This document shows, one piece after another, positions 1 through 42,544 of a DNA stretch of 42,642 nt. The translations under genes and the position numbers were made by a program. Under the pieces are notes generated by a model. It was not told the origin of the DNA. It worked only from the letters and a program-made list of their open reading frames with translations, and searched no databases. Within the stretch, counting starts at the first letter, position 1; every line of letters begins with the position of its first letter. This DNA comes from Streptomyces sp. SBT349. GTDB lineage: Bacteria; Actinomycetota; Actinomycetes; Streptomycetales; Streptomycetaceae. Location of the stretch: positions 1-42,642 of the forward strand of contig NZ_LAVK01000020.1 of NCBI RefSeq assembly GCF_001083795.1, given 5' to 3'.

Positions 1-24
1 GTCACCAAGAGCGAGGAGACCGCC

Positions 25-2679: not shown

Positions 2680-5683
<3,004 letters not shown>

Positions 5684-6118
5684 CACGGCGCGTTCGCGCT
5701 CGCGCTGCGGGTGCCGGAGCGGGTGAGCGGGCCGGTGACGCTCACCGTGAACGGCCGGCGGCACGAGGTGCCGGACGGCGCCCGTTCCGCCACCGTGCGC
5801 CGGACGTGGCACGAGGACACCGTGCGCCTGGAACTGCCCCGCGCGCTGCGGGCGATACCCCTGCCCGACCGGCCGGAGGCGGTGGCGTTCCGCTACGGAC
5901 CCGAGGTCCTGGCCGGGCTGTGCGACGAGGGGCGCCGCCTGGTCGGGGACCCGGCCCGTCCGGAGACGCTGCTGGCCCCCGACGAGGAGCGCGACCCGTT
6001 CGCCTGGCGGGGCTCCTGGCGCGCCCGCGGCCAGGACCGGGGGCTGCGCTTCGTGCCGCTCCACGAGGTGGAGGAGGAGAGCTACGCGGTCTACTTCCCG
6101 GTCACGCCCCGGCGGTGA
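5684..6118 (+). pseudogene. 3' remnant of a GH127 (DUF1680) gene
   Basis: The frame encodes only the C-terminal sandwich of a GH127/DUF1680 protein. Homology starts at about 5684 with FALALRVPERV, continues through LTVNGRRHEV and the FRYGPEVLAGL motif, and ends with ESYAVYFPV, which matches the family's usual C-terminus. An in-frame TGA lies just upstream (5657-5659) and no ribosome binding site precedes the GTG at 5711. The (alpha/alpha)6 catalytic domain with its Glu-x-Cys and Cys-Cys zinc site is absent; full-length members are about 570-650 residues. The 3' end overlaps the convergent GH78 gene by 17 bases. I read it as a decayed third GH127-type gene. A short functional protein starting at 5711 is possible but unlikely. 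Confidence 0.75.
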
Positions 6119-8765
6119 ACCGCGCGTCGCCCGGCCCGGCCTCGTAGACGGCGCGGGCGCCCTCGACCCCGAGCGCCCGCGCGCCCGGCGGCGCCGGGTC
6201 CGGGGCGGCGCCGCCGGGCAGCGGCACCTCGACGCGGGCGGGCGCCCCCGGGGGAACGGTGACGTCGAGGAGGAGGCCGCCGCCCGGCGGGCGCCGCCAG
6301 GCGCTCCGGACCCGGCCGCGGGGGGTGTCGTACCAGGCGTCGACATGGGTGAGGTCTCCTACCGGGGTGGGCCGGATGACGATCCGGTCGAAGGCGACCG
6401 AGTCGTCGGCCTGGCGGATGCCGGCGAGCGAGGCGGTGAGCCACTCCTGGATCGCGCCGAGCATGAAGTGGTTCTGCGAGGAGCCGCGGGTGGGCCCGTC
6501 CCAGCGTTCGGTGAGCGCGGTCGCGCCGTGCGCGATCTGGTAGCCGTAGCTGGGGTTGTCGGTGCGGGTGACGAGGTCGTGGACGACGTCGTCACGGCCG
6601 TGGGCGGAGAGCGCCCGCAGCAGCGAGGGCAGGGCGATCTCGCCGACCGTGACGTGGTCGCCCTCGGCCCTGATGGCGGCGACGAGGTGGCCGAGCACGG
6701 CCGCGCGCTCGGCCGCCGGCACGACGCCCATGTCCAGGGCGAGGGCGTCGGCGGCCTGGCTGCCGGTGGCGTAGGTGTGCTCCCCCGGGTCGAAGAAGGC
6801 CCGGTGGAAGGCGTGGCCGACGCGGTCGGCGAGCGCCGCGTACTGACGGGCCTCGCCCTCCCGGCCCAGGACCGCGGCGATCCGGCCGATCGTCGTGGCG
6901 AGGCGGTGGTAGGCGTAGGTCGCGGTGACGGCCTTCGGCGTGGAGGTGTCGAAGGCCATCCAGTCGCCGAGGCCGTGGGAGAGCAGCTCGCCCTCGGCCC
7001 GGGTGGCCAGGTGGTCCAGATAGCGCCGCATGTGCGGGTAGTGGGCGCGCAGTGTGGCGGTGTCGCCGTACCTGCGGTGGAGGAGCCAGGGCGCCAGGAC
7101 GATCGCGCCGCCCCAGTTCGGGTCGTCGCGGAACTTGTCCGCGAAGACGGTGTACTCGGGCGCGATGCCCGGCACGAGTCCGGAGTCGGTCTGCGCGTCC
7201 GCCATGTCGCGCACCAGCTTGCGGTAGTACGCGGCGACGTCGTAGTTGTCGGCGACGGCCGGGAAGACGAGGTGGGTCTCCTCCAGCCAGCCGAGCTTCT
7301 CCCGGTGCGGGCAGTCGGTGAGGACGCTGTACATGTTGGACTGCACGGCGCGGTCGACGAGCCGGTGGATGCCGTTGACGAGCTCGTCGGAGCAACGGAA
7401 GCCGCCCGCGGGCGGGTTGGCGGCGCGCAGCACGTGGGCGCGGACGGTGCCGGTGGTGGCGGGCCGGGGAAGTCCCTCGACCTGGACGTAGCGGAAGCCG
7501 TGGTAGACGGTGACCGGGTGCCAGACCTCCGGGGTCTGCGGGTCGCCGCCGCGCAGCGTGTAGGTGTCGTAGCAGGGGCGGCCGGTGAAGCGCTGGTTGA
7601 CGGTGCCGTCCTCGTTCAGCAGCTCGGCGGGGCGCAGGGTCACGGTGGTGCCGGCGGGCCCGGCGACGCGCAGCTCCGGGCGGCCGGCGACGTTGACGCC
7701 GAAGTCGACGACGTGGACGCCGGGCCGCGGCTCGGTCACGGAGACGGCGGTCAGCTCCTCCACGACCTCGACCGGCGGGTGGGCGCGGGCGGTGAGCGTG
7801 ACGTCCGGGGCGGGCACGACCACCGCGGGGCGCCAGCCCGCCCGGACGGCGGCGCGGTCGGCCCCGTGGGCCCCGTCGGCGCTCGGCACGTCCCAGCCGG
7901 GCCGCTCGCGGCGGGCGTCGTACTCCTCGCCGCCGAACCAGTCGGAGAGGGTGACGGGGCCGGCCGCCGTGCGCCAGCTCTCGTCGGTGACGAGGGTGGT
8001 GAAGGAGCCGTCGTCGGCCTCCACGCGCAGCACCGCGAGGAGCCTCGGCAGGCCGTAGCTGACGTGCAGCTTCTGGTAGCGGCCCGGCACGTCGGGAACG
8101 TGGGCGATGCCGCCGGCCAGCTGGAAGCCGACGGTGTTGGCGCCCGCCCGCAGCGCGCCGGTGACGTCGTAGGTGGCGTACAGCAGCCGCTTGTCGTAGG
8201 CGGTGTAGCCGGGTTCGAGCTCGGCGGCGGCGACGCGGCGCCCGTTGACGGTGGGGTGGTAGACGCCCAGGGCGGTGGCGTACAGGCGGGCGCTGCGGAT
8301 GGGCGGCTTCAGGTGGAAGTCGCGGGCCAGCAGGGGCATCGCGCGGTCCGGGTCGTGTTCCGCGGTGGCGGGCGGGGCCCACTCGGGGGCGGTCACCCAG
8401 CGCGCGCCGCCCCAGTCGGCGGGCCGGAGCAGCCCCGTCTCCCACACGGCCGTCCGGCTCCAGGCGGACGCCACGTCGTTCTCGTCCCACACCCGGACCC
8501 GCCAGCAGGCCCGCCGGCCGGAGCCGAGCCGCCGGCCGGCGTAGGGCACCGCGACCCCGCGTTCGCCCGCCACCCGGCCGCTGTCCCACAGGTCGTGCTC
8601 GCCGCCGGCGAGTCGGCCGGGGGTGGACGCCACCTGGATCCGGTAGGCGCGCTGCCGTCCGGCGGCGAGCCGCCAGGAGAGGTCGGGGCGTTCGGCGTCG
8701 ATGCCGAGGGGGTCGGTGAGGTACCCGGTCCTGAGGTGGGTCGGCGCGGCGGGGGCCTCTGCCAT
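6102..8765 (-). CDS. GH78 alpha-L-rhamnosidase, cytoplasmic, second copy
   Basis: An 887-residue GH78 enzyme, full length and without a signal peptide. It carries the N-terminal fibronectin-like domain starting near THLRTGYLTDPLGID, the rhamnosidase N and concanavalin-like domains, the (alpha/alpha)6 barrel and a C-terminal sandwich. Its acid region reads DCPHREKLGWLEE and its base region ALTERWD. These differ from DCPQRDERLGWTGD and TIWERWD in the other GH78, so the two belong to different subgroups and probably prefer different linkages. The ATG at 8765 has GGAGA 8 bases upstream. It lies 24 bases after the DeoR gene on the same strand, so the two are probably co-transcribed and the enzyme should respond to that regulator. 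Confidence 0.92.
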   Translation of the reverse strand: MAEAPAAPTHLRTGYLTDPLGIDAERPDLSWRLAAGRQRAYRIQVASTPGRLAGGEHDLWDSGRVAGERGVAVPYAGRRLGSGRRACWRVRVWDENDVASAWSRTAVWETGLLRPADWGGARWVTAPEWAPPATAEHDPDRAMPLLARDFHLKPPIRSARLYATALGVYHPTVNGRRVAAAELEPGYTAYDKRLLYATYDVTGALRAGANTVGFQLAGGIAHVPDVPGRYQKLHVSYGLPRLLAVLRVEADDGSFTTLVTDESWRTAAGPVTLSDWFGGEEYDARRERPGWDVPSADGAHGADRAAVRAGWRPAVVVPAPDVTLTARAHPPVEVVEELTAVSVTEPRPGVHVVDFGVNVAGRPELRVAGPAGTTVTLRPAELLNEDGTVNQRFTGRPCYDTYTLRGGDPQTPEVWHPVTVYHGFRYVQVEGLPRPATTGTVRAHVLRAANPPAGGFRCSDELVNGIHRLVDRAVQSNMYSVLTDCPHREKLGWLEETHLVFPAVADNYDVAAYYRKLVRDMADAQTDSGLVPGIAPEYTVFADKFRDDPNWGGAIVLAPWLLHRRYGDTATLRAHYPHMRRYLDHLATRAEGELLSHGLGDWMAFDTSTPKAVTATYAYHRLATTIGRIAAVLGREGEARQYAALADRVGHAFHRAFFDPGEHTYATGSQAADALALDMGVVPAAERAAVLGHLVAAIRAEGDHVTVGEIALPSLLRALSAHGRDDVVHDLVTRTDNPSYGYQIAHGATALTERWDGPTRGSSQNHFMLGAIQEWLTASLAGIRQADDSVAFDRIVIRPTPVGDLTHVDAWYDTPRGRVRSAWRRPPGGGLLLDVTVPPGAPARVEVPLPGGAAPDPAPPGARALGVEGARAVYEAGPGDARFTAGA

Positions 8766-8789: not shown

Positions 8790-9548
8790 TCAGGCGATCA
8801 CCAGCTCGACTCCGCTCTCGCGGCACAGCCGGGGGTAGGGCGGCGGGGGCTCGACGTCCGTGACGAGCACGTCCACCTGGTCGAGGCGGGCGACGGAGAT
8901 CGTCTCGGTGCGGCCGAACTTGGTGTGGTCCATGACGACGATCACCGTCTCGGCGATCTCCAGCATCGCGCGGCGCACCTCGGCCTCCTCCAGGTCGAAG
9001 AAGGTCAGGCCGCGCTCCGGGGTGAGTCCGCCGCAGCCCAGGACGAGCTTGTTCACGTGCAGCTTGCGGATGGTCTCCGTGGCGAGCGCGCCGACCAGGC
9101 ACATCTCCGGGGCGATCACCCCGCCGGCGAGCAGCACCTTGGCCGAGGTGCCGGGCGCCTTGCGGAACTCCCCGGCCACGTGGATGGAGTTGGTGACGAC
9201 CACCAGGTCCCGGGTGCCGCGCAGCGCGCGGGCCACGCTGTGCGCCGTGGTGCCGGTGTCGATCGCGACGCTGTCGCCGTCCTGGATCAGCCCGGCGGCG
9301 CGGGTGGCGATGCGGAGCTTCTCCGCCGCGCGGGCGACCGCGCGGGTCTCGAACGGCGAGCGCTCCCGGCGCACGGCGCCGCCGTGCACCCGGCGCAGCA
9401 CGCCGTCCTGTTGCAGCTGCCCGAGGTCGCGGCGGACGGTCATCGCCGAGACGCCGAGGCACCGGGTGAGCTCGGCGACCTCCAGGCGTTCCCGCTCGTC
9501 CAGCATCCGCAGGATGACGTCCCTGCGCGTCCGTCCGCTCTCTCCCAT
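8790..9548 (-). CDS. DeoR-family transcriptional repressor
   Basis: A 252-residue regulator. Residues 5-57 form the DeoR winged helix-turn-helix (VSAMTVRRDLGQLQQDG). Residues 75-233 form the sugar-phosphate sensor domain, with the family motifs IDTGTTA, VTNSI, LAGG and VMDHTKFGR. DeoR members usually repress catabolic genes and are released by a phosphorylated sugar. The gene sits directly upstream of a GH78 rhamnosidase and is divergent from the GH127-like/GH28 operon. The shared intergenic DNA carries two perfect TGTTC-N4-GAACA palindromes, each at or just after a predicted start of transcription, so it probably controls both directions including itself. The effector is not deducible from sequence; an intermediate of rhamnose or galacturonate catabolism would fit. 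Confidence 0.9.
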   Translation of the reverse strand: MGESGRTRRDVILRMLDERERLEVAELTRCLGVSAMTVRRDLGQLQQDGVLRRVHGGAVRRERSPFETRAVARAAEKLRIATRAAGLIQDGDSVAIDTGTTAHSVARALRGTRDLVVVTNSIHVAGEFRKAPGTSAKVLLAGGVIAPEMCLVGALATETIRKLHVNKLVLGCGGLTPERGLTFFDLEEAEVRRAMLEIAETVIVVMDHTKFGRTETISVARLDQVDVLVTDVEPPPPYPRLCRESGVELVIA

Positions 9549-9575
9549 GCCCCTCCGCCTCGTCTCGACCCGGAT

Positions 9576-9589
9576 TGTTCGAGTGAACA
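9576..9589. promoter_or_regulatory. DeoR operator O1, TGTTC-N4-GAACA
   Basis: A perfect inverted repeat, TGTTC GAGT GAACA. It covers the expected transcription start of the minus-strand promoter (-10 at 9591-9596), where a bound repressor would block the DeoR-GH78 operon. The same arms recur at 9710-9723. Confidence 0.75.
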
Positions 9590-9590
9590 G

Positions 9591-9619: not shown

Positions 9620-9668
9620 CCGCGCCGATCGCTCGCGAGATGAATATCCATCCAGCTGTCCGGCCTTG

Positions 9669-9697: not shown

Positions 9698-9709
9698 GTC
9701 CCGCATTCG

Positions 9710-9723: not shown

Positions 9724-9745
9724 TTGAGAACGGTGTGAGGGATCC

Positions 9746-31715: not shown

Positions 31716-33653
31716 ATGGACGGACCCGCTCTCCCCTCCCCCACCGCCCTGACGACCCACCGGCCGCCGAGGCCGTCCCACCTGCGGCTGACCGGCGGTC
31801 CCTGGCTGCGCTGGCAGCGGGTCAACCGCGAGGTGAGCCTGCCGCTGGCGCTGGAGTGGCTGGAGAAGGCCGGCAACCTGCGCAACCTGCGGATCGCCGC
31901 GGGCGAGGCGGAGGGCGAGTACCGCGGCCCGGTGTACATGGACTCGGACGTCCACAAGATCCTCGAATCGGCCGCCTGGGAGCTGGGCCACGGCCCGGAC
32001 GCCGCCCTGTCGGACTTCCTCGCGCGCACCGCGGGCCTGCTGGAACGGGCTCAGGAGGAGGGCGGCTACCTCGACTCCCACTACCAGGTGGCCCAGCCGG
32101 ACGGGCGCTGGACCCGGCTGGTGGACAGCCACGAGACGTACTGCGCGGGGCACCTGATGCAGGCGGCGGTGGCCGCGCACCGCGCCGGCGCGGACCCGGA
32201 CGGGCGGCTGCTGGCGGTGGCCCGGCGCTTCGCCGACCTCCTGGCCGACACCTTCCTCCCCGGCCCGGGGCCCGGGCTGGACGGCCACCCGGAGGCGGAG
32301 ACCGCGCTGGTGGAGCTGTACCGGGTGACGGGCGAACGGCGGTACCTGGAGCTGGCCTCCGCGTTCGTCGATCGCCGGGGCCACGGCCTGGTCGGCCGGC
32401 ACAAGCACGGCTCGGCCCACCGGCAGGACCACCTGCCGGTGCGCGAGGCACCGACGCTGACCGGGCACGCGGTGCGCGGCCTCTACCTGGAGGCGGGGGT
32501 CGTCGACGTCGCGGCGGAGACGGGCGACGCGGCGCTGCTCGCGGCCTCCGCCGCCCGCTGGGCGGACATGGCGGCCACGAGGACGGCGCTGACCGGCGGG
32601 CTCGGCTCGCGGCAGGTGGGCGAGGTCTTCGGGGAGCGCTACGAACTCCCGCCCGACCTGGCCTACAACGAGACCTGCGCGTCGGCCGCGAGCGTCCAGT
32701 GGAGCTGGCGGCTGCTGCTGGCCACCGGGGAGGCCCGGTACGCCGACTTGATCGAGCGCACGCTGTACAACGCCTTCGGCGCGGCTCGTTCCGCCGACGG
32801 CCGGCGGTACTACAAGGGCAACCCGCTGCAACGCCGGGCGGACCACGCGGAGGCGGTCGGCGATCCGCGCTGCCGCGACGAGTGGTTCTTCTCGGCCTGC
32901 TGCCCGCCGGCCGTCACGCGCCTGGTCGGCTCGCTCGAACACTACGCGGTGACGGTCTCCCAGGACGCCGGTCAACCCGCCCTCCACCTCCACCAGTTCG
33001 CGCCCCTGGAGCTGTCCTGCCCGCTGGCCGGCGGCGGCCTCGGGCTGCGCGTGGAGACCGGCTACCCCTGGGAGGGCGGCGTCGCGGTCACCGTCACGCA
33101 GGCGCCCCCCGAGCCGTGGGCGCTCGCCCTGCGGATACCCCCGTGGAGCGCGCGGACCTCGCTGGAGGTGAACGGCGAGCGCCGCCCCGTCGAACGCGAC
33201 GAGCGGGGCTACGCCGTGCTGCGCCGCCTCTGGCGCCCCGGCGACACGGTCACGCTCCACCTGGACGTGGCGCCCAGGCTGACCGTGCCGCACCCGCGGG
33301 TGGACGCCGTCCGCGGGTGCGTGGCGGTCGAGCGCGGGCCGCTGGTCTACTGCTTCGAGCAGGTCGACCAGGAGGCGGGCACCGAGGTGGACGACCTGGC
33401 GCTGCCGCCCGGCGTCACGTTCACGGAGCACGCGCGCGAGGACCTCGACGGGGCCGGACGCACCGTGGTGCTGCGGGCCGAGGCGGTGGCCGTCACGGGC
33501 GAGCACGAGGCGGGGCTGCCGTACCGCAGGCACGGCGGGCCGCATGCGGCTGACCTCAGGCGGCCGACGGCCGTCACCGCGGTGCCCTACTTCCAGTGGG
33601 ACAACCGCGGCGACGGCGCGATGCGGATCTGGGTGCCGCTGCTCAGCGGTTGA
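31716..33653 (+). CDS. GH127 beta-L-arabinofuranosidase-type enzyme
   Basis: A 645-residue cytoplasmic enzyme with a complete GH127 pattern: PVYMDSDVHK, DSHETYCAGHLMQAAVA, the zinc/nucleophile residues E319-T-C321 (YNETCAS) and C395-C396 (FFSACCPP), GPLVYCFEQ and the C-terminal VTAVPYFQWDNRG. The spacing between the two cysteine motifs (74 residues) agrees with characterised beta-L-arabinofuranosidases. It should act by a cysteine-based retaining mechanism on beta-L-Araf; aceric acid hydrolases of RG-II loci are in the same family. It begins 8 bases after the GntR stop, so the two are co-transcribed. Its 3' end overlaps the convergent pectate-lyase-like gene by 11 bases. Confidence 0.92.
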   Translation: MDGPALPSPTALTTHRPPRPSHLRLTGGPWLRWQRVNREVSLPLALEWLEKAGNLRNLRIAAGEAEGEYRGPVYMDSDVHKILESAAWELGHGPDAALSDFLARTAGLLERAQEEGGYLDSHYQVAQPDGRWTRLVDSHETYCAGHLMQAAVAAHRAGADPDGRLLAVARRFADLLADTFLPGPGPGLDGHPEAETALVELYRVTGERRYLELASAFVDRRGHGLVGRHKHGSAHRQDHLPVREAPTLTGHAVRGLYLEAGVVDVAAETGDAALLAASAARWADMAATRTALTGGLGSRQVGEVFGERYELPPDLAYNETCASAASVQWSWRLLLATGEARYADLIERTLYNAFGAARSADGRRYYKGNPLQRRADHAEAVGDPRCRDEWFFSACCPPAVTRLVGSLEHYAVTVSQDAGQPALHLHQFAPLELSCPLAGGGLGLRVETGYPWEGGVAVTVTQAPPEPWALALRIPPWSARTSLEVNGERRPVERDERGYAVLRRLWRPGDTVTLHLDVAPRLTVPHPRVDAVRGCVAVERGPLVYCFEQVDQEAGTEVDDLALPPGVTFTEHAREDLDGAGRTVVLRAEAVAVTGEHEAGLPYRRHGGPHAADLRRPTAVTAVPYFQWDNRGDGAMRIWVPLLSG

Positions 33654-35928
33654 TCCGCACCTGGCTGAACGTGGCCGTCGTGTAGTTGGCGGTCAGGTTC
33701 GCCTCCTTGTTGGCGTCCACCACGAGCCCCGCGTAGAGGTCGGGGCCGATGGAGATCCGCTCGTAGCCCACGCGGGTCCACTGGAGGGAGTCGGGTGAGA
33801 TCTCCGCGGTGAACTCGTCGCCGCGCAGGGTCACCCGCAGCCAGTAGGGCTGGTCCTGAAGGACCTCGCCCTCCTCCCAGGGGTAGGTGCCCACGCTCAT
33901 CTCCTCGCCGGTCGAGGCGATGCGCTTGCAGACGCCGACCAGCCCGTCCGCCGAGACGGCGACGCCCATCAGGCAGAAGGCGGAGTCCTCGGTGAGGTTC
34001 TCCCGGATCATGATGCCGCCCAGCACGTCCGCGTAGACGGGGCTCACGGAGTCGACCCGGGCGATGATCTCCACCACCTCGTCGTCCGGGGCCTCGATCG
34101 GCTGGTAGACGTAGTGGAAGGAGTCCCGCCGGCCACGGATGCGGCCGGAGCCGCGCACCGTGAACTCCCCGTCGACCAGCGCCGCCGCGCCCGGGATGGG
34201 CACGTCGCCGATGTCCACGGCCGTCCAGGGCCCCAGGTCGGTGACGCGGTTGACGTGCACCGGCACCCCGCTGGAGGTGGTGGCGGTGCCGGTGCCGTCG
34301 GTGGCCAGGACCGTCAGGTAGTGCGTGCCCTCCGGCGCGTCCGGCCACGTCAGCCGGTACGGGGCGGCGGTGCTCTCGCCGAGCTTCTCCGCGCCGGCCC
34401 AGAACTCCACCCGCGCGATGCCGGCGCCCTCGTGCGCCGTCGCCTCGGCCGCGATCACCACCTCGTGGCTGCCGGACTCCGTCGTGAGGACCGTGTGCGC
34501 CGCCGGGGAGGTGATCGAGGCGGCCGGGTTGGGTGCGCCGGCGGGGCCCAGTGAGTTGAGGTAGAGCTCCAGGTGGGTGTAGCCGGTGGCCGGGTCGACC
34601 GTCGCCGCGTCGGCCGGGTCCCGCGGGTCCAGGCCGTGCGCCCGCTCCCGGTCGTCGGGGATCCCGTCGTGGTCCCGGTCGGCGGGCGGGGGCACCGCAG
34701 CCAGGGTGACCAGTCCCCCCACCTCCGTCTGGGAGTTGATCATCCGGCCCGTCCCGGCGCGCACGTCCGCGACGAGCCGGGCGTCCACGGCGTCGCGGCG
34801 CGGCAGGGTCGCGCCCGCGCCGTCGAGCACCGCCGCGTACGCCTCCTGCGGGGTCTGCCGCTCGATCTCGTCGGGGAAGGCGACGGGCTCGTCCAGCAGC
34901 GTGACCCCGCCGACGGGGATGTCCACGCCGAGCGCGTTGTCCGCGGTGATGTCGGGATGCCCCTCGATGACGTTGCCGGCGACGTGCCAGGCGCCGCCAC
35001 GCCCGGGGGCGACGAGGACGGGGGCGATCTCGGCGAGGGTGTCGGGGCCGGGCTTGTAGTAGTTGTCGGCGATGTTGACGCCGACGGCCCACTCCCCGCC
35101 GTAGCACGAGGTGTAGCCGTAGTTGTAGACCACGTTGTTGCGCAGGTCGGCCCGCAGGTCCACGTCCTCGACGAAGCTGAAGCGGGGGTTGCGGCCGCCG
35201 TTGTGGATCAGCAGGTTGTGGTGGAACGTGACGTTGTCGCCGCCCCACAGCCCGCCGTAGCCGTGCCGGCCCTTCTCGTGCGCGGACATCGTGAGCCCCT
35301 CGGCGACGATGCACCACTGCACGGTGACGTTGCGGTTCCCGTAGGTGGAACAGGTCTCGTCCACGCCCCAGCTGAAGGAGCAGTGGTCGATCACGACGTC
35401 CCGGCGCCCCTCCATCTTGAAGGTGTCGATGGGGGTGCCGAGGGCGTCGGTGCCCCGGAAGCGCAGGTGGCGCAGGATGACGTTGTCCGCCTTGATCTCC
35501 GTCTCGTTGCCCGCGACGCAGATGCCGCCGCCGGGGGCGGTCTGCCCGGCGATGGTGAGGTTGGACCCGGTGATGTCCAGGCCGCCCTCCAGGTGGATCG
35601 TCCCGGAGACCCGGAAGACCACGGTGCGATCGCCCGCGGAGACCGCCTCGCGCAGCGAGCCGGGCCCGGAGTCGGCGAGGGTGGTCACCTCGTACACCGA
35701 GCCCCCGCGGCCTCCGGTGGCATGCCGGCCGCCGCCCTGGGCGCCGGGGAACGCGGGCACGTCCGCTGCGGCGGCGTCCGCGCCGCCGGCGTCCGCCTCC
35801 CCGCGGGGCACCGCGCCGCGGGCCACGCCGCCGAAAGCGGCGGAGCCCACCAGGGTGCCGGCCGCGGTCACGAAGGCACGCCGTCCGAAGGTCATGTGCC
35901 GTGCGGCCCTTCCGTTGGTGTCGGTCAC
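33643..35928 (-). CDS. Multidomain pectate-lyase-like protein, Tat-exported
   Basis: A 761-residue secreted protein. A twin-arginine signal (R16-R17-A-F-V) is followed by a PL1/pectate-lyase-like beta-helix (about 55-380: FPGAQGGGRHATGG, VFRVSGTI, VIDHCSFSW, ADLRNNVVYNYG). Next come a calcium-type acidic linker (DRDHDGIPDD, about 416), an Ig-like domain (about 460-550) and a C-terminal concanavalin-like domain (about 555-761) that may bind carbohydrate. It should beta-eliminate polygalacturonate; lytic activity is inferred from fold only. I prefer GTG 35928, 8 bases after GAGGAG; GTG 35937 overlaps that binding site. Last gene of the CoA-transferase-to-lyase operon, 42 bases after GH95. Confidence 0.85.
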   Translation of the reverse strand: MTDTNGRAARHMTFGRRAFVTAAGTLVGSAAFGGVARGAVPRGEADAGGADAAAADVPAFPGAQGGGRHATGGRGGSVYEVTTLADSGPGSLREAVSAGDRTVVFRVSGTIHLEGGLDITGSNLTIAGQTAPGGGICVAGNETEIKADNVILRHLRFRGTDALGTPIDTFKMEGRRDVVIDHCSFSWGVDETCSTYGNRNVTVQWCIVAEGLTMSAHEKGRHGYGGLWGGDNVTFHHNLLIHNGGRNPRFSFVEDVDLRADLRNNVVYNYGYTSCYGGEWAVGVNIADNYYKPGPDTLAEIAPVLVAPGRGGAWHVAGNVIEGHPDITADNALGVDIPVGGVTLLDEPVAFPDEIERQTPQEAYAAVLDGAGATLPRRDAVDARLVADVRAGTGRMINSQTEVGGLVTLAAVPPPADRDHDGIPDDRERAHGLDPRDPADAATVDPATGYTHLELYLNSLGPAGAPNPAASITSPAAHTVLTTESGSHEVVIAAEATAHEGAGIARVEFWAGAEKLGESTAAPYRLTWPDAPEGTHYLTVLATDGTGTATTSSGVPVHVNRVTDLGPWTAVDIGDVPIPGAAALVDGEFTVRGSGRIRGRRDSFHYVYQPIEAPDDEVVEIIARVDSVSPVYADVLGGIMIRENLTEDSAFCLMGVAVSADGLVGVCKRIASTGEEMSVGTYPWEEGEVLQDQPYWLRVTLRGDEFTAEISPDSLQWTRVGYERISIGPDLYAGLVVDANKEANLTANYTTATFSQVRINR

Positions 35929-35970
35929 GTTCGTCACTCCTCTTTCGGTGGGGACGGCCCGGGGCCTTCG

Positions 35971-38403
35971 CTACGCCGGGTGGAGCACGTACGTGCCCCC
36001 GGGCCGGGTGCCGAAGGCGACCACGTGGTCCTCCGGCCGGTCGGGCTCGGCACCCGTGACGTCCACACGCCCCGGCGTGCGGACGCGGACGGGGTTGCCC
36101 AGCCGGGAGCGCACGACGGCCCGCGTCACGCCGGACGAGGCCCACTCCAGGTCGATCTCGAAGCCGCCGCGCGCCACCAGCCCGCGGAAGGAGCCGGCGG
36201 GCCAGGCGGCGGGGAGGGCGGGGAGCAGCTCCACCTCGCCCGCGTGGCTCTGCATCAGCATCTCGGTGATCCCCGACACGCCGCCGAAGTTGCCGTCGAT
36301 CTGGAACGGCGGGTGCAGGTCGAAGAGGTTGGGCGCGGTGCGGGCCGGGGTGAGCAGCTCGGTGAGCCGCTCGTAGGCGCGCACGGGGTCCAGCAGCCGC
36401 GCCCACATGTTGATCTTCCAGGCGAGCGACCACCCCGTGCCGGCGGCGCCGCGCAGCTCCAGGGTCTTCACGGCGGCGGCGGCGAGCTCGGGGGTGCCCC
36501 GGGGGGTGATCTGCGCGCTGGGGAACACCCCGTACAGGTGGGAGACGTGCCGGTTCTTGACGAGCGCGGCCTCCTCCCAGTCCACCAGCCACTCCTGGAG
36601 CTGGCCGAGGTAGCCGATCTGCATCGGCGCCAGCCGGCCGCGGACCTCGCCGACCCGCTCGGCGAGGCCGCGGTCCCGGTCGAGCACGTCGCTGGCCTGC
36701 CGGAACGCGTCGAAGAGGTCACGCAGCAGTTGCATGTCCATGGTCGGCCCGGCGCAGATGCTGACGCTCTCGCCCTCGTCCTGGTGGTGGGTGACCTCCG
36801 GCGAGTGCGAGGGGTTGGTGACCAGCCAGCCGGTCCGCGCGTCCTCGACCAGGGTGTCGAGGAAGAACCGCACCGCGCCCCTCATCACCGGGAAATTGCG
36901 GGCGAGGGATCCGGTGTCCCCGGTGAAGAGGTAGTGGTCCCACAGCATCAGGCTGACCCAGGCGCCGCCGGTGGGCCACATGCCGTACTGGGCGTAGTCC
37001 ACGGGCGCGGTGCCGCGCCAGCCGTCGGTGTTGTGGTGGAGCACCCAGCCGGGGGCGTCGTAGAGCGCCCTGGCGGTGCGCGCGCCGGACTCGGCCAGCT
37101 CGTGGATCATGTCCACCGCCGGGTCCCAGCACTCGGCGAGGTTCGCGGGCCCGGCCGGCCAGTAGTTCATCTCGAAGTTGATGTTGACGGTGTACTTGGA
37201 CTCCCAGGCCGGGTTCATGCTGTCGTTCCACAGGCCCTGGAGGTTGGCGGGCTGGCCGGGGGCGCGGGAGCAGGAGGCCAGCAGGTAGCGGCCGTACTGG
37301 AAGTACAGCGCGGCGAGTTGCGGGTCGCCGCCGTCCGCGAAGAGCCCGATCCGCTCGTCCGTGGGCAGGGTCACGCGGTCGGAGGTGCCCAGATCGATGT
37401 CGACGCGGGTGAACAGCCGCCGGTGGTCGGCCACATGGCGTTCCCGCAGCCGGGCGTAGGGCTTCCCCGCGGCCGGCTCCAGGTGGCGGCGGGCGCGGGC
37501 GACCGGGTCGGCGCCGACGTCCAGGTAGCTGCGGTAGCTGGTGGCCAGGGAGATGACCAGGGTGACCGCGTCGGACTCCGCCACGGTCAGGGCACCTTCG
37601 GCGCCGGTGCTCACCCGCCCGCCCTCGGCGACCGCGCGGGCGACGGCGCGGAAACGCACCGAGCCGGGGAGTCCGAACCAGTCCCCGCTGATCCCGTCCA
37701 GCGCGATCGTGCTCGCGTCGACGGCCGAGCCGGTGGCCCGCTGGGGGGTGGTGAACCGGGCCGTGAAGCCGACGGCCCCCGGGGCGTCCGCGGTCAGCCG
37801 CGCGACGAGGACCTGGTCGGGGGCGCTGGCGAAGACCTCCCGGGTGTGGCGCACGCCGCCGCGGGTGTAGCGGACGCGGGTGATGGCGGTCTCCAGGTCG
37901 AGCTCGCGCTCGTAGTCGCCGACCTCGCCGGCCCCGGCGAGGGCGAGTTCGAGGTCGCCGAGCACCTGGTATGCCGCCTGCTCGGAGGGGGTGCCGAGGA
38001 AGTGGGCGTCGGCGAGGACCTGCGCCTGGTGCCACTTCTCCTCCACCACCAGGCGGCGGATCTCCTCCAGGTACTCCCCGGCGTCGGGCCGGGCGTAGTC
38101 GTGCGGGCCGCCGGCCCACAGGCTGTCCTCGTTGAGTTGCAGGCGTTCGGTGCCGGTGCCGCCGAAGACCATGGCGCCGAGGCGGCCGTTGCCGACGGGG
38201 AGCGCCTGGAGCCACTCCCCGGCCGGGGCGGTGTACCACAGCCGCAGGGGGTTGGGGCCGTGTCCGCCGGCCCCGGGCGCTCCCCCGGGTGTCGCCCCGT
38301 CGGGGGCGTGCTCGGCGGCCCCGGCGGTCCGGGCGGACAGGGCGGTGGCCGCAGCGCCGGCTCCGGCGGTGGCCAGGACATGGCGTCGGGAGAACTCAGG
38401 CAT
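35971..38403 (-). CDS. GH95 enzyme, Tat-exported; L-galactosidase-like residue
   Basis: An 810-residue inverting glycosidase with a twin-arginine signal (S5-R6-R7-H-V-L). The GH95 architecture is complete: N-terminal sandwich (PVGNGRLGAMVFGG; LNEDSLWAGGP), (alpha/alpha)6 barrel and C-terminal sandwich. Catalytic residues match: N407 and N409 (NINFEMNYW), acid E536 (PSHSPE) and D703 (QIDGNFGG). Two residues before N407 is T405, where 1,2-alpha-L-fucosidases have histidine (H419 in the Bifidobacterium enzyme). In a studied Bacteroides GH95, threonine there goes with alpha-L-galactose, so I favour an alpha-L-galactosidase (recalled residue mapping). ATG 38403 has GGAG 8 bases upstream. The 66-base gap before it holds nothing recognisable. 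Confidence 0.88.
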   Translation of the reverse strand: MPEFSRRHVLATAGAGAAATALSARTAGAAEHAPDGATPGGAPGAGGHGPNPLRLWYTAPAGEWLQALPVGNGRLGAMVFGGTGTERLQLNEDSLWAGGPHDYARPDAGEYLEEIRRLVVEEKWHQAQVLADAHFLGTPSEQAAYQVLGDLELALAGAGEVGDYERELDLETAITRVRYTRGGVRHTREVFASAPDQVLVARLTADAPGAVGFTARFTTPQRATGSAVDASTIALDGISGDWFGLPGSVRFRAVARAVAEGGRVSTGAEGALTVAESDAVTLVISLATSYRSYLDVGADPVARARRHLEPAAGKPYARLRERHVADHRRLFTRVDIDLGTSDRVTLPTDERIGLFADGGDPQLAALYFQYGRYLLASCSRAPGQPANLQGLWNDSMNPAWESKYTVNINFEMNYWPAGPANLAECWDPAVDMIHELAESGARTARALYDAPGWVLHHNTDGWRGTAPVDYAQYGMWPTGGAWVSLMLWDHYLFTGDTGSLARNFPVMRGAVRFFLDTLVEDARTGWLVTNPSHSPEVTHHQDEGESVSICAGPTMDMQLLRDLFDAFRQASDVLDRDRGLAERVGEVRGRLAPMQIGYLGQLQEWLVDWEEAALVKNRHVSHLYGVFPSAQITPRGTPELAAAAVKTLELRGAAGTGWSLAWKINMWARLLDPVRAYERLTELLTPARTAPNLFDLHPPFQIDGNFGGVSGITEMLMQSHAGEVELLPALPAAWPAGSFRGLVARGGFEIDLEWASSGVTRAVVRSRLGNPVRVRTPGRVDVTGAEPDRPEDHVVAFGTRPGGTYVLHPA

Positions 38404-38469: not shown

Positions 38470-39666
38470 TCATCGGCGTCTTCCCGCACGGTGGCGGGCG
38501 TCGAGCTCGTCCAGCAGCGCCCGGTGCGGTCGGCCCTCGGCCAGCCCCTCGCGCAGCAGCTCCGAGGCGGCCTGCTGGAACGAGGGGTAGCCGGGCCAGC
38601 GCGGGCGCACCCAGGCGCGCTCCACGGTGGCGAGGGTGGAGCGGTAGAAGCCGCCCCACTGGTCGTTGGTCCAGGGGTCGGTCCAGGCCGACCGGGCGGC
38701 GGGCTGTCCGCCGGTGACGGGGAACAGCCCGCGCTGCACCGGGTCGGCGAGCAGCCGCCGGAGGTGGTCGCGGACCGCGGAGCGCGCGGCGGCGTCGCCC
38801 GTCCGCCGGCTGGAGACCGCGAGCCCGGTGCCGCCGAGCACGCTGCCCGGGGGGTCGCCGGGCAGCCAGGCGGGCGGGGCGGAGAACGCCAGCGGGTAGG
38901 GGCCCGAGCGCGTGTAGGTCACATAGCCGTGCACCAGCGGGCAGTACCCCGGTCCCTGCCCGGCGGCCATCGCCCGCAGCACGGCGACCGGGTCGGCGGA
39001 GCCCAGCCCCGGCGGGGTCCTGGCGGCGAGCACCGCCATGGTCTCCAGGGCGGCGAGCCCCTGTTCGCGCGGGAACGGGCTGTCCTCCTCCCCGTCCCGG
39101 GCGGGCTCCCCGCCCTGGGCCAGGCAGAGCGAGAGGAAGGTGAGGAAGGCGTGCGGCCCGCCCAGGCAGAGGGTGACCGGCACCTCGCGTGGCAGCGCGC
39201 ACACCTCTTCCCAGGTGCGGGGCAGGTCCCGCTCCCCCATCAGGTCCGGGCGGACGGCGGCGACCTGGGCGGCGGCGTCCAGCGGCAGCGCCCAGGTGCG
39301 GTCGTCCAGGACGTAGCTGTCGAAGCTGGGGCCGACGCTGCGCTCGCGCCAGGCCGCCAGCTCGGTGGGGCCGAAGAGCACCTCCATCGCCACGAGGCAG
39401 CCCGCCTCGACCGCGCCGCCGAGCCCGGAGTGGTCGACGACGAGGAGGTCGTAGTCGGCGGCCAGCGCGGCGATCGGCGTCGACTCGAACCCGGACAGCG
39501 GCTGCCGGTCCCAGCGCAGCGGGCGGCCGACCGTCTCGCATCCGGGCGGCACCGAGGCATCGATCCGGCTCAGCTCCTCCAGCGGGCCGTAGCCGCGCGG
39601 GTGGTCCCACGTGAGGCCGCGCAGTTCGCCGACCGCCGTGGGCGGCGCCATCGCCGGGGCCGTCAT
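38470..39666 (-). CDS. Solute-binding-protein homologue without export signal
   Basis: A 398-residue protein with the family-1 sugar-binding-protein fold pattern (LLVVDHSGLGG; WALPLDAAAQVAAVRPDLM; RTWEEVCAL; GTGLAVSS; and a C-terminal WPGYPSFQQAASELLREGL). It starts MTAPAMAPPTAVGELRG with no signal peptide, twin arginine or lipobox, so it is predicted to stay in the cytoplasm. The start is fixed by an ATGA overlap with the CoA-transferase homologue and GGGGAGG just upstream. The pair therefore seems to work together. A cytoplasmic binding-protein fold may serve as a sensor, carrier or enzyme subunit; I do not know its function. Loss of a signal by mis-sited start is unlikely because the upstream frame encodes only arginine-rich residues. 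Confidence 0.65.
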   Translation of the reverse strand: MTAPAMAPPTAVGELRGLTWDHPRGYGPLEELSRIDASVPPGCETVGRPLRWDRQPLSGFESTPIAALAADYDLLVVDHSGLGGAVEAGCLVAMEVLFGPTELAAWRERSVGPSFDSYVLDDRTWALPLDAAAQVAAVRPDLMGERDLPRTWEEVCALPREVPVTLCLGGPHAFLTFLSLCLAQGGEPARDGEEDSPFPREQGLAALETMAVLAARTPPGLGSADPVAVLRAMAAGQGPGYCPLVHGYVTYTRSGPYPLAFSAPPAWLPGDPPGSVLGGTGLAVSSRRTGDAAARSAVRDHLRRLLADPVQRGLFPVTGGQPAARSAWTDPWTNDQWGGFYRSTLATVERAWVRPRWPGYPSFQQAASELLREGLAEGRPHRALLDELDARHRAGRRR

Positions 39667-40562
39667 GACGCCTCCCCGCGGACGCCGAGGGAGTCCTCGG
39701 CGAGCAGCGGCCACATCCGGTGCCCGGGTCCGCCGGGGCCCGCCCGGGAGCCTTCGCGCCGGGCCCGCGGGGCGGTGCCGTTCCCGGGGTCAGGGGAGGC
39801 GGGCGCGGCCTCGACGCCGTGCCGCGCGAACGTCTCCAGCCACTCGGCGGTGGTGCGGCGCGGCAGCCGCAGCCGGACCAGCGCGGTGATCTCCTCCCGG
39901 CAGTTGTGGCCCTTGGCCTCCCGGCCGCCCAGTTCGGGCAGGTCGAGGGCGTCGCCGAGCGGGTCGAGCGGCGGCATGGCCAGGGCGAGATGGCCGTCCT
40001 TGGTGGCGAACACCCGCCGCGGGGCGCGGACCCGGGTGTGGCCGGGCGCCCCCGCCGCTCGCGCCGGGTGCCCGGCGGTCACCGAGACGAGCCGGCCCTC
40101 GCCGGTGCGCTCCCGGTGCAGCAGGGCGCCCAGCGTCCCCTCCATGGCCGAGTCGGCGGCGAGCGTCTCGTCGGCCTGCGGCCCGGTGGCGCCCCGTTCG
40201 CAGACCGCGACATAGACGAGGCCGGGGTTGGCCCGGCGGATCGTCGTGTGGTCCACGCCGAGCCGCTCGGCCACACCGGGCGGGTAGTCCTGGAGGAGGA
40301 CGTCCGCGTCGCGGGCCAGGGCGAGCACCACCGACCGCCCCCGGGCGGTGGCGAGGTTCACCGTGAGGGACAGTCCGTCGCGGGCGGGCGGGGGAAGGGC
40401 CGCGGCGGGTCCGGTGGCCCGCGCCCGGCCCTCCCCGGCGTGGTCCGGCCGCTGCTCCACCGTGACCACGTCGGCGCCGAGGTCGCCCAGGCGCCTGGCC
40501 GTCCGCGGCCCGGCCCTGGTGACCGACAGGTCGACCACCCGGTAGCCGTCCAGAATTCCCAT
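39663..40562 (-). CDS. Shortened class III CoA-transferase homologue (CaiB/BaiF)
   Basis: A 299-residue CaiB/BaiF-type protein; normal members are about 400. The N-terminal CoA-binding Rossmann region is kept (RVVDLSVTRAGPRTARRLGDLGADVVTVE -like start, then RSVVLALARDADVLLQDYPPG and GLVYVAVCERGATGP). After GATGP the usual segment with the catalytic aspartate (a YD...Q pattern) appears to be missing, and the sequence jumps to EGTLGALLHRERTGEG. CoA transfer by the standard mechanism is therefore doubtful. GGAGGG precedes ATG 40562. It is first in a four-gene operon with a binding-protein homologue, GH95 and the lyase. Upstream lies an 8-base tandem repeat. Confidence 0.75.
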   Translation of the reverse strand: MGILDGYRVVDLSVTRAGPRTARRLGDLGADVVTVEQRPDHAGEGRARATGPAAALPPPARDGLSLTVNLATARGRSVVLALARDADVLLQDYPPGVAERLGVDHTTIRRANPGLVYVAVCERGATGPQADETLAADSAMEGTLGALLHRERTGEGRLVSVTAGHPARAAGAPGHTRVRAPRRVFATKDGHLALAMPPLDPLGDALDLPELGGREAKGHNCREEITALVRLRLPRRTTAEWLETFARHGVEAAPASPDPGNGTAPRARREGSRAGPGGPGHRMWPLLAEDSLGVRGEAS

Positions 40563-40681: not shown

Positions 40682-42544
40682 TCAGTCCGTCGCCTCGGGC
40701 ACCGGGTAGGGGAAGGAGTCGTCGACGCCGATCCGGTCGTACTCCATCCGCGAGGTGTCGAAGCCCTCCTGCCAGTTGGCGTTCTCCACCGTGTTGCACT
40801 GGTAGCTCTGGTACTTGTCGTCGGTGACCTCGCCGACCTCGATGTCGGCGAAGCTGAATCCGCAGCCGCCGGCGTCCATGTGCACGCCGCGGGTGCCGCT
40901 GTCGGGCATCGAGTCGTCCGGGATGACGTCGCCGATGACGACCTGCCGCACGTGGTTGTCGATCGGGTGCGGCTCGGCGTTGTCGACGCCGTAGGTGTAG
41001 AAGGCGCCCATGTCGCCGCTGTCCAGCCCGACTTCCTCGATGCGCAGGTACTCGAAGACGTTGTCGCGGGCGTAGTTGTCCTCGGCGGCGACCTCGGGGC
41101 GCACCTCCAGGCTCACCCCGTAGCGGGCGCTGTGCTCGATCAGGCTGTGGCTGACCACGTTCCGGCCGGTGTTCATCAGCTCCACGCCGGAGGCGTCCCC
41201 GGGCACCAACTCGCCGTAGTGGGTGATGTAGTTGTTGGTGAACAGGTGGCCGTAGGAGGTGTCGCCCTCGCCCGGGTAGGGGCCCTCGACCTTGATGCCG
41301 TCGGCGCCGATGTTCTCCAGCAGGCTGCTCTCGACGGTCAGTCCCTCGTTGGCGAAGAGGGCGTAGACGGCGTGGTAGCCCGTGTCGGAGATGCGCATCC
41401 GCGACAGGGTGATGTCCCGGCTGTTGGTGACCGTCACCGCGCCGAAGCGGTTGCGGGGCATCTCGATCTGCCGGTCGTACTCCGGGTACTCGTGGGCGTA
41501 GCCGGAGTCGCCCTCGCTGATCCAGCCGAAGCGGTACCAGTCGACGAAGTCGCTGTACTGGAGGGCGAGTCCGTCGAAGGTGATGTTCTCCACGCGGTGC
41601 TCGGGGCTGCTGCCCGCCAGCTCGATGAGCGTGTCCGCGACCGGCGCCATGATCTCGGCGTCCTCGATGTCGCCGCGCGGCTTGTAGTAGAGCTGGCCCG
41701 CGTCGTAGTCGAGGTAGTACTCGCCGGCCTGGTCCAGGAAGTCCAGGGAGTTCTGGAGGAAGTACCGTGATCCGCTCCGGCTGTTGATCAGCGCGTAGCG
41801 CGTCCAGTGCTCCATGGTCAGCTGGTTGTCGTCCCAGGAGGGGTTCTGGATCGGCACGGTGTCCGTGAACCAGCTCCAGCTGCCGCCCGACCAGATGAAG
41901 ACCTCGGCGTCGTCGAGGTCCCAGGTCGGGTCCCACTCACCGGGGTTGGAGTACAACCACTGGTGCACGGCCTCCTTTTCCGGCTCCTTCAGCACGGAGA
42001 ACAGGTAGGGCGCCCACTCCTCGTCCGTGGCGCGGTTGGGGTAACGGGCGGTGGTGGCCCGCCGGCCGTCCTCGAAGAGAGTGTGGAACGGGTTGTCCGT
42101 GCCGACCTCGGCGCGGTAGATGCCGTCCTGGTACTCCTCCCAGTCGGTGACCCGCTCGGCGCCGACGACACGCGCCTCGCCGGGGCCGTCGTAGCTGCGG
42201 TAGACGACCTGGTGGCCGCGCGTTCCCGAGTCGTTCTCGTCGAACTCCAGGGCCTGGTCCACCTGGTAGTCGCCGGCCCGCAGGTTCACCACGATGTCGC
42301 AGCGCATCCGCCGGGTCAGGCCCTCCTCGCGCAGGTGGTCGCGGGCGTGCTCGATCGTCTGCCAGGCGTCGTCCTTGTCGCCCTCGGCCCGGTCGCTGCC
42401 GTCCGGGGAGACGAAGAACTGCCGGGGCTCGCACGCCTCGGCGGCGGTGCTGGCGTCCCCGGGCAGCGCCGCGCCGGCGACCAGCAGCAGGGTGCTCGCC
42501 GCCAGCGCCGGAAGGCTCCGGTTGCGTCTACGGGTTCTGGACAA
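40682..42544 (-). CDS. GH141-like right-handed beta-helix protein, secreted
   Basis: A 620-residue exported protein. A Sec-type signal (basic SRTRRRN, hydrophobic LPALAASTLLLVAGAAL, cleavage near ASTAAEA) is followed by the opening FFVSPDGSD, DENDSG and TARYPN motifs seen in GH141, then parallel beta-helix repeats (ITLSRMRISDTGYHAVY, LLENIGADGIKV, GVELMNTGRNVVSHS). The founding GH141 member is an alpha-L-fucosidase acting on RG-II; fucose or another residue is possible here. I choose TTG 42544 with AAGGAG 8 bases upstream, although the frame is open to 42607. Same strand as the CoA-transferase operon, 119 bases apart, perhaps co-transcribed. Bases 42545-42642 upstream show no clear promoter. 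Confidence 0.7.
   Translation of the reverse strand: MSRTRRRNRSLPALAASTLLLVAGAALPGDASTAAEACEPRQFFVSPDGSDRAEGDKDDAWQTIEHARDHLREEGLTRRMRCDIVVNLRAGDYQVDQALEFDENDSGTRGHQVVYRSYDGPGEARVVGAERVTDWEEYQDGIYRAEVGTDNPFHTLFEDGRRATTARYPNRATDEEWAPYLFSVLKEPEKEAVHQWLYSNPGEWDPTWDLDDAEVFIWSGGSWSWFTDTVPIQNPSWDDNQLTMEHWTRYALINSRSGSRYFLQNSLDFLDQAGEYYLDYDAGQLYYKPRGDIEDAEIMAPVADTLIELAGSSPEHRVENITFDGLALQYSDFVDWYRFGWISEGDSGYAHEYPEYDRQIEMPRNRFGAVTVTNSRDITLSRMRISDTGYHAVYALFANEGLTVESSLLENIGADGIKVEGPYPGEGDTSYGHLFTNNYITHYGELVPGDASGVELMNTGRNVVSHSLIEHSARYGVSLEVRPEVAAEDNYARDNVFEYLRIEEVGLDSGDMGAFYTYGVDNAEPHPIDNHVRQVVIGDVIPDDSMPDSGTRGVHMDAGGCGFSFADIEVGEVTDDKYQSYQCNTVENANWQEGFDTSRMEYDRIGVDDSFPYPVPEATD

Follow-up and report, generated by a model that had tools for sequence, protein, structure and literature searches.

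A probable import-based locus for rhamnogalacturonan II utilisation in Streptomyces sp. SBT349

Introduction

The closest described counterparts of the locus considered here are the rhamnogalacturonan II (RG-II) loci of Bacteroides thetaiotaomicron, which Ndeh and colleagues reportedly described in 2017. RG-II breakdown has been resolved enzyme by enzyme in this gut species (PMC12282258), whilst in the plant field the lack of standards for 3-deoxy-D-lyxo-heptulosaric acid (Dha) and aceric acid is noted and an RG-II glycoform library is awaited (PMC12168206). The present analysis concerns a stretch of 42,642 nucleotides from Streptomyces sp. SBT349 (contig NZ_LAVK01000020.1 of assembly GCF_001083795.1), hereafter called the window. 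It is a complete contig (C122), and the draft genome to which it belongs comprises 691 contigs with 8.06 Mb in all. Judging from its gene families, its synteny with relatives and the genes with which it is associated in other genomes, the window probably represents an import-based RG-II utilisation locus of Streptomyces. If true, Actinobacteria and Paenibacillus would have a second solution, one that relies on import, which would tell how RG-II can be used outside the gut and provide new enzymes.

Glycoside hydrolase complement of the window

Scans of the 27 open reading frames (ORFs) of the window against Pfam and NCBIfam, together with PDB sequence searches for selected proteins, revealed glycoside hydrolase (GH) families GH78, GH2, GH28, GH95, GH127 and GH141 side by side (Table 1), the GH141 match being remote and comprising the insertion domain and the beta-helix. 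Most of what a sequence-only reading had proposed for this stretch is borne out by these scans, namely two GH78, a GH2, which is of LacZ type, two GH28, a GH95 and a GH141-like protein (GH141_M, 32.3 bits, cut-off 27), whereas of its two GH127-type genes and a remnant the gene at 31716-33653 and the remnant stand and the gene for a 573-aa protein falls below the Pfam cut-offs. The proposed PL1-like lyase turned out to be a PelZ-like pectate lyase with a Big_7 domain, the sialidase-fold propeller a BNR_2 protein (BNR2), the keto-acid lyase homologue a gene of the dihydrodipicolinate synthase (DHDPS) family, the importer an OppBCDF system with a solute-binding protein (SBP5), and the two regulators a DeoR-type and a GntR/FCD protein. 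Genes that had escaped that reading are the apiosidase-like pair DUF5060a and DUF5060b, the family-less U802, a hexapeptide-repeat protein, a second solute-binding protein (SBP_bac_1/8) and a pair coding for a solute-binding-protein-like (SBP-like) protein and a CoA-transferase. Its central proposal, a Gram-positive RG-II locus built on ATP-binding cassette (ABC) import, is supported by association with D-apionate genes such as OiaX, with GH138-type genes and with a similar locus in Paenibacillus.

A conserved core and its distribution

An alignment-based scan of 84,980 genomes for BNR2 yielded 321 loci, the best 80 of which were analysed. Flanks covered at most 10 kb, and because many loci are cut off less than 10 kb from BNR2, absences by tblastn are to be read as lower bounds; genes in the loci of relatives were called by a GC-frame heuristic, and some listed ORFs are spurious. 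BNR2 and OppBCDF belong to the same run of genes in 30 of the loci analysed, all of them actinobacterial, Kribbella and two others having a solute-binding gene interposed. Within these 30 core loci, DUF5060a is present in 29, SBP5 in 28, U802 in 27, PelZ in 18, DHDPS in 12, GntR in 11 and GH127 in nine. They are distributed over ten named genera (Streptomyces, Streptosporangium, Actinopolymorpha, Auraticoccus, Microlunatus, Desertihabitans, Nonomuraea, Kribbella, Occultella and Candidatus Ruania) and one metagenome-assembled genome. The locus is nevertheless rare, as DUF5060a was found (E ≤ 1e-60) in only four of 100 relatives, own genome counted.

The whole window has a collinear counterpart in Streptomyces sp. 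MP131-18, the genes being 80-97% identical and one of the two pieces of the first GH28 being at 75%, and parts of the gene order are kept in other genera. Because the order is thus maintained in MP131-18 and partly across genera, the gene set is more than a chance assembly.

Apiose and D-apionate genes in related genomes

With respect to D-apionate catabolism, 25 of the 30 carrier genomes have an OiaX-type gene (E ≤ 1e-80), namely 17 of the 22 from actinobacteria and all eight from Paenibacillus, and a 26th, Actinopolymorpha, shows a weak match, in contrast to one of 100 relatives. This association holds amongst the actinobacteria (17/22 vs. 1/97, p = 3e-15, Fisher's exact test) as well as within Streptomyces (4/7 vs. 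0/59, p = 5e-5), both uncorrected for kinship; for the sets of 97, here and below, our own genome, G008 and G097 were removed from the 100 relatives, which are mainly Streptomyces, and the carriers include other genera. The sole relative with an OiaX-type gene (G077, same class) also has PdxA, and a DUF5060a match was not found in it.

OiaX lies inside the locus itself in Kribbella (six of nine loci), Occultella, Streptomyces hoynatensis and Streptomyces NBC_01669. In S. hoynatensis (L192), OiaX and OiaK reside between the 573-aa gene and the DeoR gene, where the window has 197 bp, and in NBC_01669 (L195) between the second GH78 gene (GH78b) and the 573-aa gene, a DeoR match not being listed there. 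In the locus of Paenibacillus sp. V4I3, a RuBisCO-like gene has OiaX (457 bits, cut-off 700) and a DUF1537 kinase gene OiaK (500 bits, cut-off 700) as best NCBIfam model.

In MP131-18 the region directly to the left of the first GH78 gene (GH78a), corresponding to DNA immediately beyond the left edge of the window, has genes for a GH29, a xylose-isomerase-like TIM barrel, an FGGY kinase, a split transketolase and a SorC/DeoR-type regulator, and contig C226 of the own genome carries the isomerase and the GH29 at 95% and 92% identity, respectively. From its gene families the isomerase, kinase and transketolase set likely encodes the apulose route, a catabolic route for D-apiose; no NCBIfam model names the set as such.

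Taken alone, the apionate association would fit a locus for another apiose glycan, such as the apiogalacturonan of aquatic plants, for which GH28 and DUF5060a might suffice, or apiosylated flavonoids. However, neither substrate offers an evident role for GH95, the GH141-like protein, GH127, BNR2 or the association with GH138 and GH137, and we consider the chance of such a locus to be very small.

RG-II-specific glycosidases in relatives

The locus of Paenibacillus sp. V4I3 unites within about 65 kb BNR2, two DUF5060a genes, U802 (46% identity), a relative of the 573-aa gene (56%), GH95, GH78 and GH2 with GH106, OiaX/OiaK and a full-length GH138-type gene (1017 bits, cut-off 1300), and one of its proteins matches, with 178 bits and E 2e-52, that half of a beta-glucuronidase/beta-L-arabinofuranosidase model which stands for GH137. 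We take the GH138 and GH137 models to represent BT0997 and BT0996, respectively. Of 34 carriers, 15 have a full-length GH138-type gene scoring above 800 bits (all eight Paenibacillus, seven of 26 actinobacteria), as against none of the 100 relatives, in which the best match has 31 bits (actinobacteria 7/26 vs. 0/97, p = 9e-6, Fisher's exact test, kinship uncorrected). They are found within about 10 kb of BNR2 in two Microlunatus, and 14 of 19 Paenibacillus BNR2 loci contain one.

As already stated by the sequence-only reading, GH106 is not in the window; the own genome has a GH106 gene at the end of another contig (G000:C133:41189-42157), and MP131-18 yielded no match. Pfam and NCBIfam name no GH137, GH139, GH142 or GH143 in the window, no genome-wide search for these families having been made.

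Of the 19 Paenibacillus loci, 17 carry a gene with weak NCBIfam matches only, termed U717 (L113:10747-12900). A PDB search of U717, considered for its place next to BNR2 as a possible relative of GH142, a family presumably fused to GH143 in BT1020, returned only weak matches to YgjK, which we take to be a GH63 enzyme, and this candidate was dropped.

Several observations weigh against RG-II as the substrate. The combination of GH78, GH2, GH28, GH95, GH127 and GH141 fits RG-II yet is not specific for it, and many scores remain below the curated NCBIfam cut-offs, including every GH138-type match (cut-off 1300). The own genome has just a 21.5-bit fragment of GH138 and MP131-18 none, and full-length GH138 is absent from all Streptomyces, Nonomuraea and Kribbella carriers searched. 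Likewise, OiaX was not found in the own genome or in MP131-18 by the same genome search as used for the carriers, and since Nonomuraea cypriaca has both OiaX and the isomerase set, the latter need not be an apiose route. The limited occurrence of DHDPS and GH127 amongst the core loci points in the same direction, and the carriers are mutually related, so that the counts overstate independence. Finally, the two GH28 proteins resemble the BT4155 enzyme, not BT1018: the best NCBIfam model for both, although below its cut-off, is the BT4155 alpha-galacturonidase, the locus of which presumably serves rhamnogalacturonan I (RG-I).

This last point, together with the PelZ-like lyase and the LacZ-type GH2, would suit a locus for RG-I and homogalacturonan, in which ordinary pectin is degraded by GH28, GH78, GH2 and PelZ, with the other genes as accessories. 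Such a locus would hardly account for apionate genes inside sister loci, for the GH138-type association or for an apiosidase-like DUF5060a, and neither GH105 nor RG-lyase families are listed in the Pfam scans of the 27 window ORFs; we regard it as quite unlikely and retain RG-II as the probable substrate.

BNR2, DHDPS and a possible route for Dha

The structural model of BNR2 (predicted local distance difference test score, pLDDT, 95) matches the sialidase of Micromonospora viridifaciens (1w8o/1eus) with Z 39.3 and a root mean square deviation of 2.3 over 311 aligned residues at about 22% identity, and a profile match to sialidases (E 2e-15) adds sequence similarity to the GH33 fold. Sialidases bind the carboxylate through a three-arginine site with a RIP motif. 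In an alignment of 53 BNR2 sequences, R210, R212, R283 and Y320 are invariant, and His32, likewise invariant, appears to stand where the Arg of the RIP motif would be expected. GH143/BT1020 is neither among the 60 listed of 108 profile matches nor among the 50 model entries listed, which proves nothing. BNR2 is a candidate ketosidase for Dha or for 3-deoxy-D-manno-octulosonic acid (Kdo). A sialic-acid (nan-like) locus, as suggested by the presence of BNR2, DHDPS and GntR, was rejected, because relatives of BNR2 reside with PdxA, DUF1537 kinases and pectin enzymes.

Beyond the core, BNR2 relatives with 39-46% identity occur in 31 further loci from Pseudomonadota, Bacillota, one Treponema and two Streptomyces, and within about 10 kb these contain genes of PdxA type (24 loci), for DUF1537-type kinases (24), DHDPS-family proteins (21), iron-dependent alcohol dehydrogenases (Fe-ADH, 16) and YhcH-type proteins (five). 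Two of them, from Vreelandella, also have OiaX and OiaK. The occurrence in these halophiles of BNR2, PdxA, kinase and DHDPS genes together with OiaX/OiaK (L093, L100) might be related to green algae that contain Dha, for example Tetraselmis. In Paenibacillus agaridevorans (L060), DHDPS, Fe-ADH, BNR2, kinase, PdxA and DUF5060a lie within 15 kb. For a kinase of V4I3 the highest-scoring model is that of D-threonate kinase (338 bits, cut-off 450), and V4I3 PdxA passes TIGR00557 (348, cut-off 290), with D-threonate 4-phosphate dehydrogenase in third place (347, cut-off 583) behind two PdxA models.

Dha, a 2-keto-3-deoxy diacid with seven carbons, would be cleaved by a pyruvate aldolase into pyruvate and a C4 aldehyde-acid, reduction of the aldehyde would give D-threonate by our own working of the lyxo configuration, and D-threonate could then be converted by a DUF1537 kinase and PdxA2 into dihydroxyacetone phosphate, a conversion that Zhang and colleagues reportedly demonstrated in 2016. 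In searches of an open-licence library we found no published catabolic pathway for Dha, and the gene set translates into a handful of directly testable reactions.

PdxA is present in 28 of 34 carriers as compared to eight of 100 relatives, own genome counted (28/34 vs. 7/97, p = 2e-16; Streptomyces 7/8 vs. 6/59, p = 1e-5; Fisher's exact test, kinship uncorrected). It lies by the locus in Streptosporangium and Occultella, and in MP131-18 it is found 300 kb from the locus beside genes for a DUF1537-type kinase and a KdgT-type 2-keto-3-deoxygluconate permease (L147:12352-13539). Where DHDPS is part of the locus (13 genomes, our own included), PdxA is present in every case; of the 13 without DHDPS, seven have it and six lack it (p = 0.015, Fisher's exact test, kinship uncorrected), the lack of DHDPS in L038 and L048, which end at or near SBP5/OppB, being possibly an edge effect.

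For the BNR2 family as a whole, Dha is our favoured substrate, if tentatively so, and for the window itself we are less sure. In a tree, DHDPS proteins of the core form a clade of their own, and that of the window has 20-33% identity to the others in the tree, so that it was rejected as an ortholog of the aldolases in PdxA cassettes; since it is also restricted to a minority of the core loci, the case for Dha is weaker for the window. Further points count against Dha. DHDPS is missing from the examined flanks of Nonomuraea and Kribbella loci that keep BNR2, and PdxA is lacking in all five Kribbella tested. By tblastn no Fe-ADH was found in 14 actinobacterial PdxA stretches, a set that leaves aside the second one of MP131-18, nor is one in the lists for L147, L152, L158 and L159, which leaves the reductase step there without a candidate. 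PdxA is common in Pseudomonadota, and as eight of the 31 non-core loci belong to Burkholderia, Paraburkholderia or Trinickia and several to Vreelandella, the 24 loci with PdxA amount to far fewer independent cases.

Alternatively, BNR2 and the aldolase might act on the Kdo of side chain C or on a sialic-acid-like sugar. In line with this, the window DHDPS has as its best PDB matches 5c54/5c55, titled dihydrodipicolinate synthase/N-acetylneuraminate lyase, and both its position outside the PdxA-cassette clade and its absence from BNR2-bearing Nonomuraea and Kribbella loci would be accommodated; GH78 would suit Rha-Kdo, and the fold of BNR2 is nearest to sialidases. However, cleavage of Kdo yields arabinose and would need neither the PdxA-type genes nor the DUF1537 kinases that accompany BNR2 relatives in the non-core loci, and the apparent replacement of the sialidase RIP Arg by an invariant His counts against this alternative, as it is also a weak point for Dha. 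This alternative is a serious one, although we hold it to be rather unlikely.

Candidate new enzymes

DUF5060a keeps an N-E dyad and a second Glu in all 39 distinct sequences and passes the Pfam cut-off for Apiosidase-like proteins with both carboxylates in place, which points to a GH140-like catalytic domain. In DUF5060b the dyad is lost in all 19 sequences compared, although two still show an E at its place, and the second Glu is either substituted or absent; this set derives from 23 rows after removal of L025, L044, L045 and L047, which are length variants of the DUF5060a gene, and the Nonomuraea b genes were not included. That a dead partner is kept across genera suggests a complex with DUF5060a, or a binding or regulatory role.

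Sequence searches of U802 against Pfam, NCBIfam and PDB gave no match. Its model (pLDDT 80; 684 residues, one before the likely start) comprises a beta-rich N-terminal part and an (alpha/alpha)6 toroid like that of GH76 and 2-epimerases (listed Z 15.7-19.4, 6-15% identity). It is conserved in the core loci and in V4I3. The simplest guess is that U802 represents a candidate new glycosidase family.

The 573-aa protein matches GH127 below the Pfam cut-offs (18.9 vs. 24.9 bits for PF07944 and 19.1 vs. 24.2 bits), an ETC...CC motif is readable in it, and it has relatives with 56-69% identity in Paenibacillus, Kribbella and Nonomuraea loci. For the GH127 protein proper, the beta-L-arabinofuranosidase 4qjy (388 bits) scores higher in the PDB search than 5mqo (300 bits), which we take to be BT1003. 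Aceric acid hydrolase is the best NCBIfam model for it, yet at 381.9 bits far below the cut-off of 950, so that this is a candidate assignment at most. A second GH127 gene resides on another contig of the own genome (G000:C194:8450-10432, L016) and is 47% identical to that of the window. The GH127 remnant is explained by one clean gap of about 1.39 kb at window position ~5690 relative to MP131-18, which has spared no more than the ends of the gene, with a 3-bp overlap at the junction; the gap may be a real deletion or an assembly collapse.

The joint proposition that the Dha route holds, that U802 and the 573-aa protein each found a new family of RG-II glycosidases and that the conserved dead apiosidase is the partner of the live one does not quite reach an even chance.

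Proposed utilisation of RG-II

Signal sequences, all read by eye, were seen for the PelZ-like lyase, one GH28, GH95, the GH141-like protein and the two solute-binding proteins; as most enzymes are without, most of the sugar removal would be expected in the cytoplasm after import. From gene families and signals we infer the import of oligosaccharides and the substrate of each enzyme as follows. The exported PelZ-like lyase, one GH28, GH95 and the GH141-like protein would cut the backbone and trim outer sugars outside the cell, and the oligosaccharides would enter via SBP5-OppBCDF, perhaps also via the second solute-binding protein. In the cytoplasm, the two GH78 would release rhamnose (Rha), GH2 galactose, GH28 galacturonic acid, GH127 and its 573-aa relative beta-L-arabinofuranose or aceric acid, DUF5060a apiose, and BNR2 a 2-keto-3-deoxy acid, Dha or Kdo, with U802 as an exo-enzyme to which no linkage is assigned. 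The freed keto-acid might be split by the DHDPS-family lyase into pyruvate and an aldehyde.

Organisation of the window and accompanying genes

Table 1. Genes and other features of the window, with the matches on which their naming is based
Feature	Coordinates	Strand	Evidence
GH78 alpha-L-rhamnosidase, signal peptide not seen, starts at contig edge	1-2655	+	PF17389 420 bits
GH2 beta-galactosidase, LacZ type, signal not seen	2680-5577	-	PF02836 328 bits; NF007666 780 (cut-off 1284); NF052611 773 (cut-off 999)
GH127-type gene, 3' remnant	5711-6118	+	91% to residues 493-627 of the 627-aa MP131-18 GH127 (PF07944 289 bits)
Second GH78, signal not seen	6102-8765	-	PF17389 321 bits
DeoR-type repressor	8790-9548	-	PF00455 160 bits
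197-bp gap, OiaX/OiaK site of S. hoynatensis (L192)	9549-9745	.	Synteny
GH127L573, 573-aa remote GH127-like protein, signal not seen	9746-11467	+	Sub-threshold GH127 matches
GH28, Tat signal read by eye	11461-12948	+	PF00295 102 bits; NF049892 (BT4155) 327, below cut-off 800
GH28, signal not seen	12945-14297	+	PF00295 60 bits; NF049892 305, below cut-off 800
Hexapeptide-repeat acetyltransferase-like protein	14284-16020	+	PF00132 68 bits
U802, 683 aa, no Pfam/NCBIfam family	16067-18118	-	Beta-rich N-terminal part and (alpha/alpha)6 toroid (model)
SBP_bac_1/8 solute-binding protein, Tat signal read by eye	18279-19766	+	PF13416 38 bits, cut-off 27
DUF5060b, apiosidase-like pseudoenzyme	19794-21017	-	PF18310, PF16586
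DUF5060a, apiosidase-like GH-A enzyme (DUF5060/PF13204/DUF5605)	21014-22429	-	PF13204 48.9 bits, cut-off 26.5; PF16586, PF18310
BNR2, sialidase-fold protein, signal not seen	22426-23520	-	PF13088 221 bits
OppF, OppD, OppC, OppB importer genes	23517-27806	-	Family scans
SBP5 solute-binding lipoprotein, Tat signal and lipobox read by eye	27825-29819	-	PF00496 199 bits
DHDPS-family aldolase	29809-30771	-	PF00701 178 bits; best PDB 5c54
GntR/FCD regulator	30908-31708	+	PF07729 76 bits
GH127, signal not seen	31716-33653	+	PF07944 265 bits, cut-off 24.9; NF049879 381.9, cut-off 950; best PDB 4qjy
PelZ-like pectate lyase with Big_7, Tat signal read	33643-35937	-	NF041900 141 bits, below cut-off 840; PF17957
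GH95, Tat signal (PF10518 19.8 bits, below cut-off 22.7)	35971-38403	-	PF22124 551 bits; PDB 7kmq 767 bits, 4ufc 624 bits
414-aa protein, SBP-like by eye	38470-39714	-	No Pfam/NCBIfam match
Short CoA-transferase III	39663-40562	-	PF02515 125 bits
GH141-like parallel beta-helix protein, signal peptide read by eye	40682-42607	-	PF21231 32.3 bits, cut-off 27; 5mqp (BT_1002) E 1e-12

The hexapeptide-repeat acetyltransferase-like gene is an odd member of a catabolic cluster; the C-terminal part of its product, of about 360 aa, is without family, and the gene recurs in Streptomyces and Streptosporangium loci. The signal-less SBP-like protein and the CaiB-type CoA-transferase, encoded by adjoining genes in the window, form a pair that is found twice in MP131-18 and also near GH95/GH141 in Nonomuraea (L187:146-4545; L121/L190; L208). 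One might guess that they serve the activation of an RG-II acid, perhaps aceric acid, as its CoA ester. A gene without Pfam or NCBIfam match, U666 (L188:1637-3637), follows GH141 in MP131-18 and in Nonomuraea (71% identity).

Comparison with known systems

The GH33 sialidases, exemplified by that of M. viridifaciens, share the propeller fold with BNR2; in contrast to them, BNR2 has no signal peptide and carries His at the place of the RIP Arg, and the partners of its relatives are sugar-acid enzymes. The GH140 apiosidase BT1012 is the nearest known counterpart of DUF5060a, which passes the Pfam threshold for such enzymes but differs by its DUF5060 and DUF5605 domains and by the conserved dead paralogue adjoining it; one solved relative was found in PDB (4n0r), titled putative glycoside hydrolase. 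The catabolic modules for D-threonate (DtnK/PdxA2) and D-apionate (OiaK/OiaX), reportedly described by Zhang in 2016 and Carter in 2018, supply the best NCBIfam models for the kinase and RuBisCO-like genes of V4I3, whereas here the genes are coupled with BNR2, DHDPS, Fe-ADH or RG-II glycosidases, and the scores for OiaX, OiaK and D-threonate kinase are below the cut-offs.

With the RG-II loci of B. thetaiotaomicron, the window has GH78, GH2, GH28, GH95, GH127, GH141-like and apiosidase-like genes in common, to which its relatives add GH106 and GH137- and GH138-type genes. In contrast to those loci, in the window SusCD was not seen and import is of the Opp ABC type, the exo-enzymes are mostly without signal, and the search of the own genome did not turn up GH138. 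To our knowledge, the RG-II families of Bacteroides do not include BNR2, the DUF5060 pair, U802 or the 573-aa protein.

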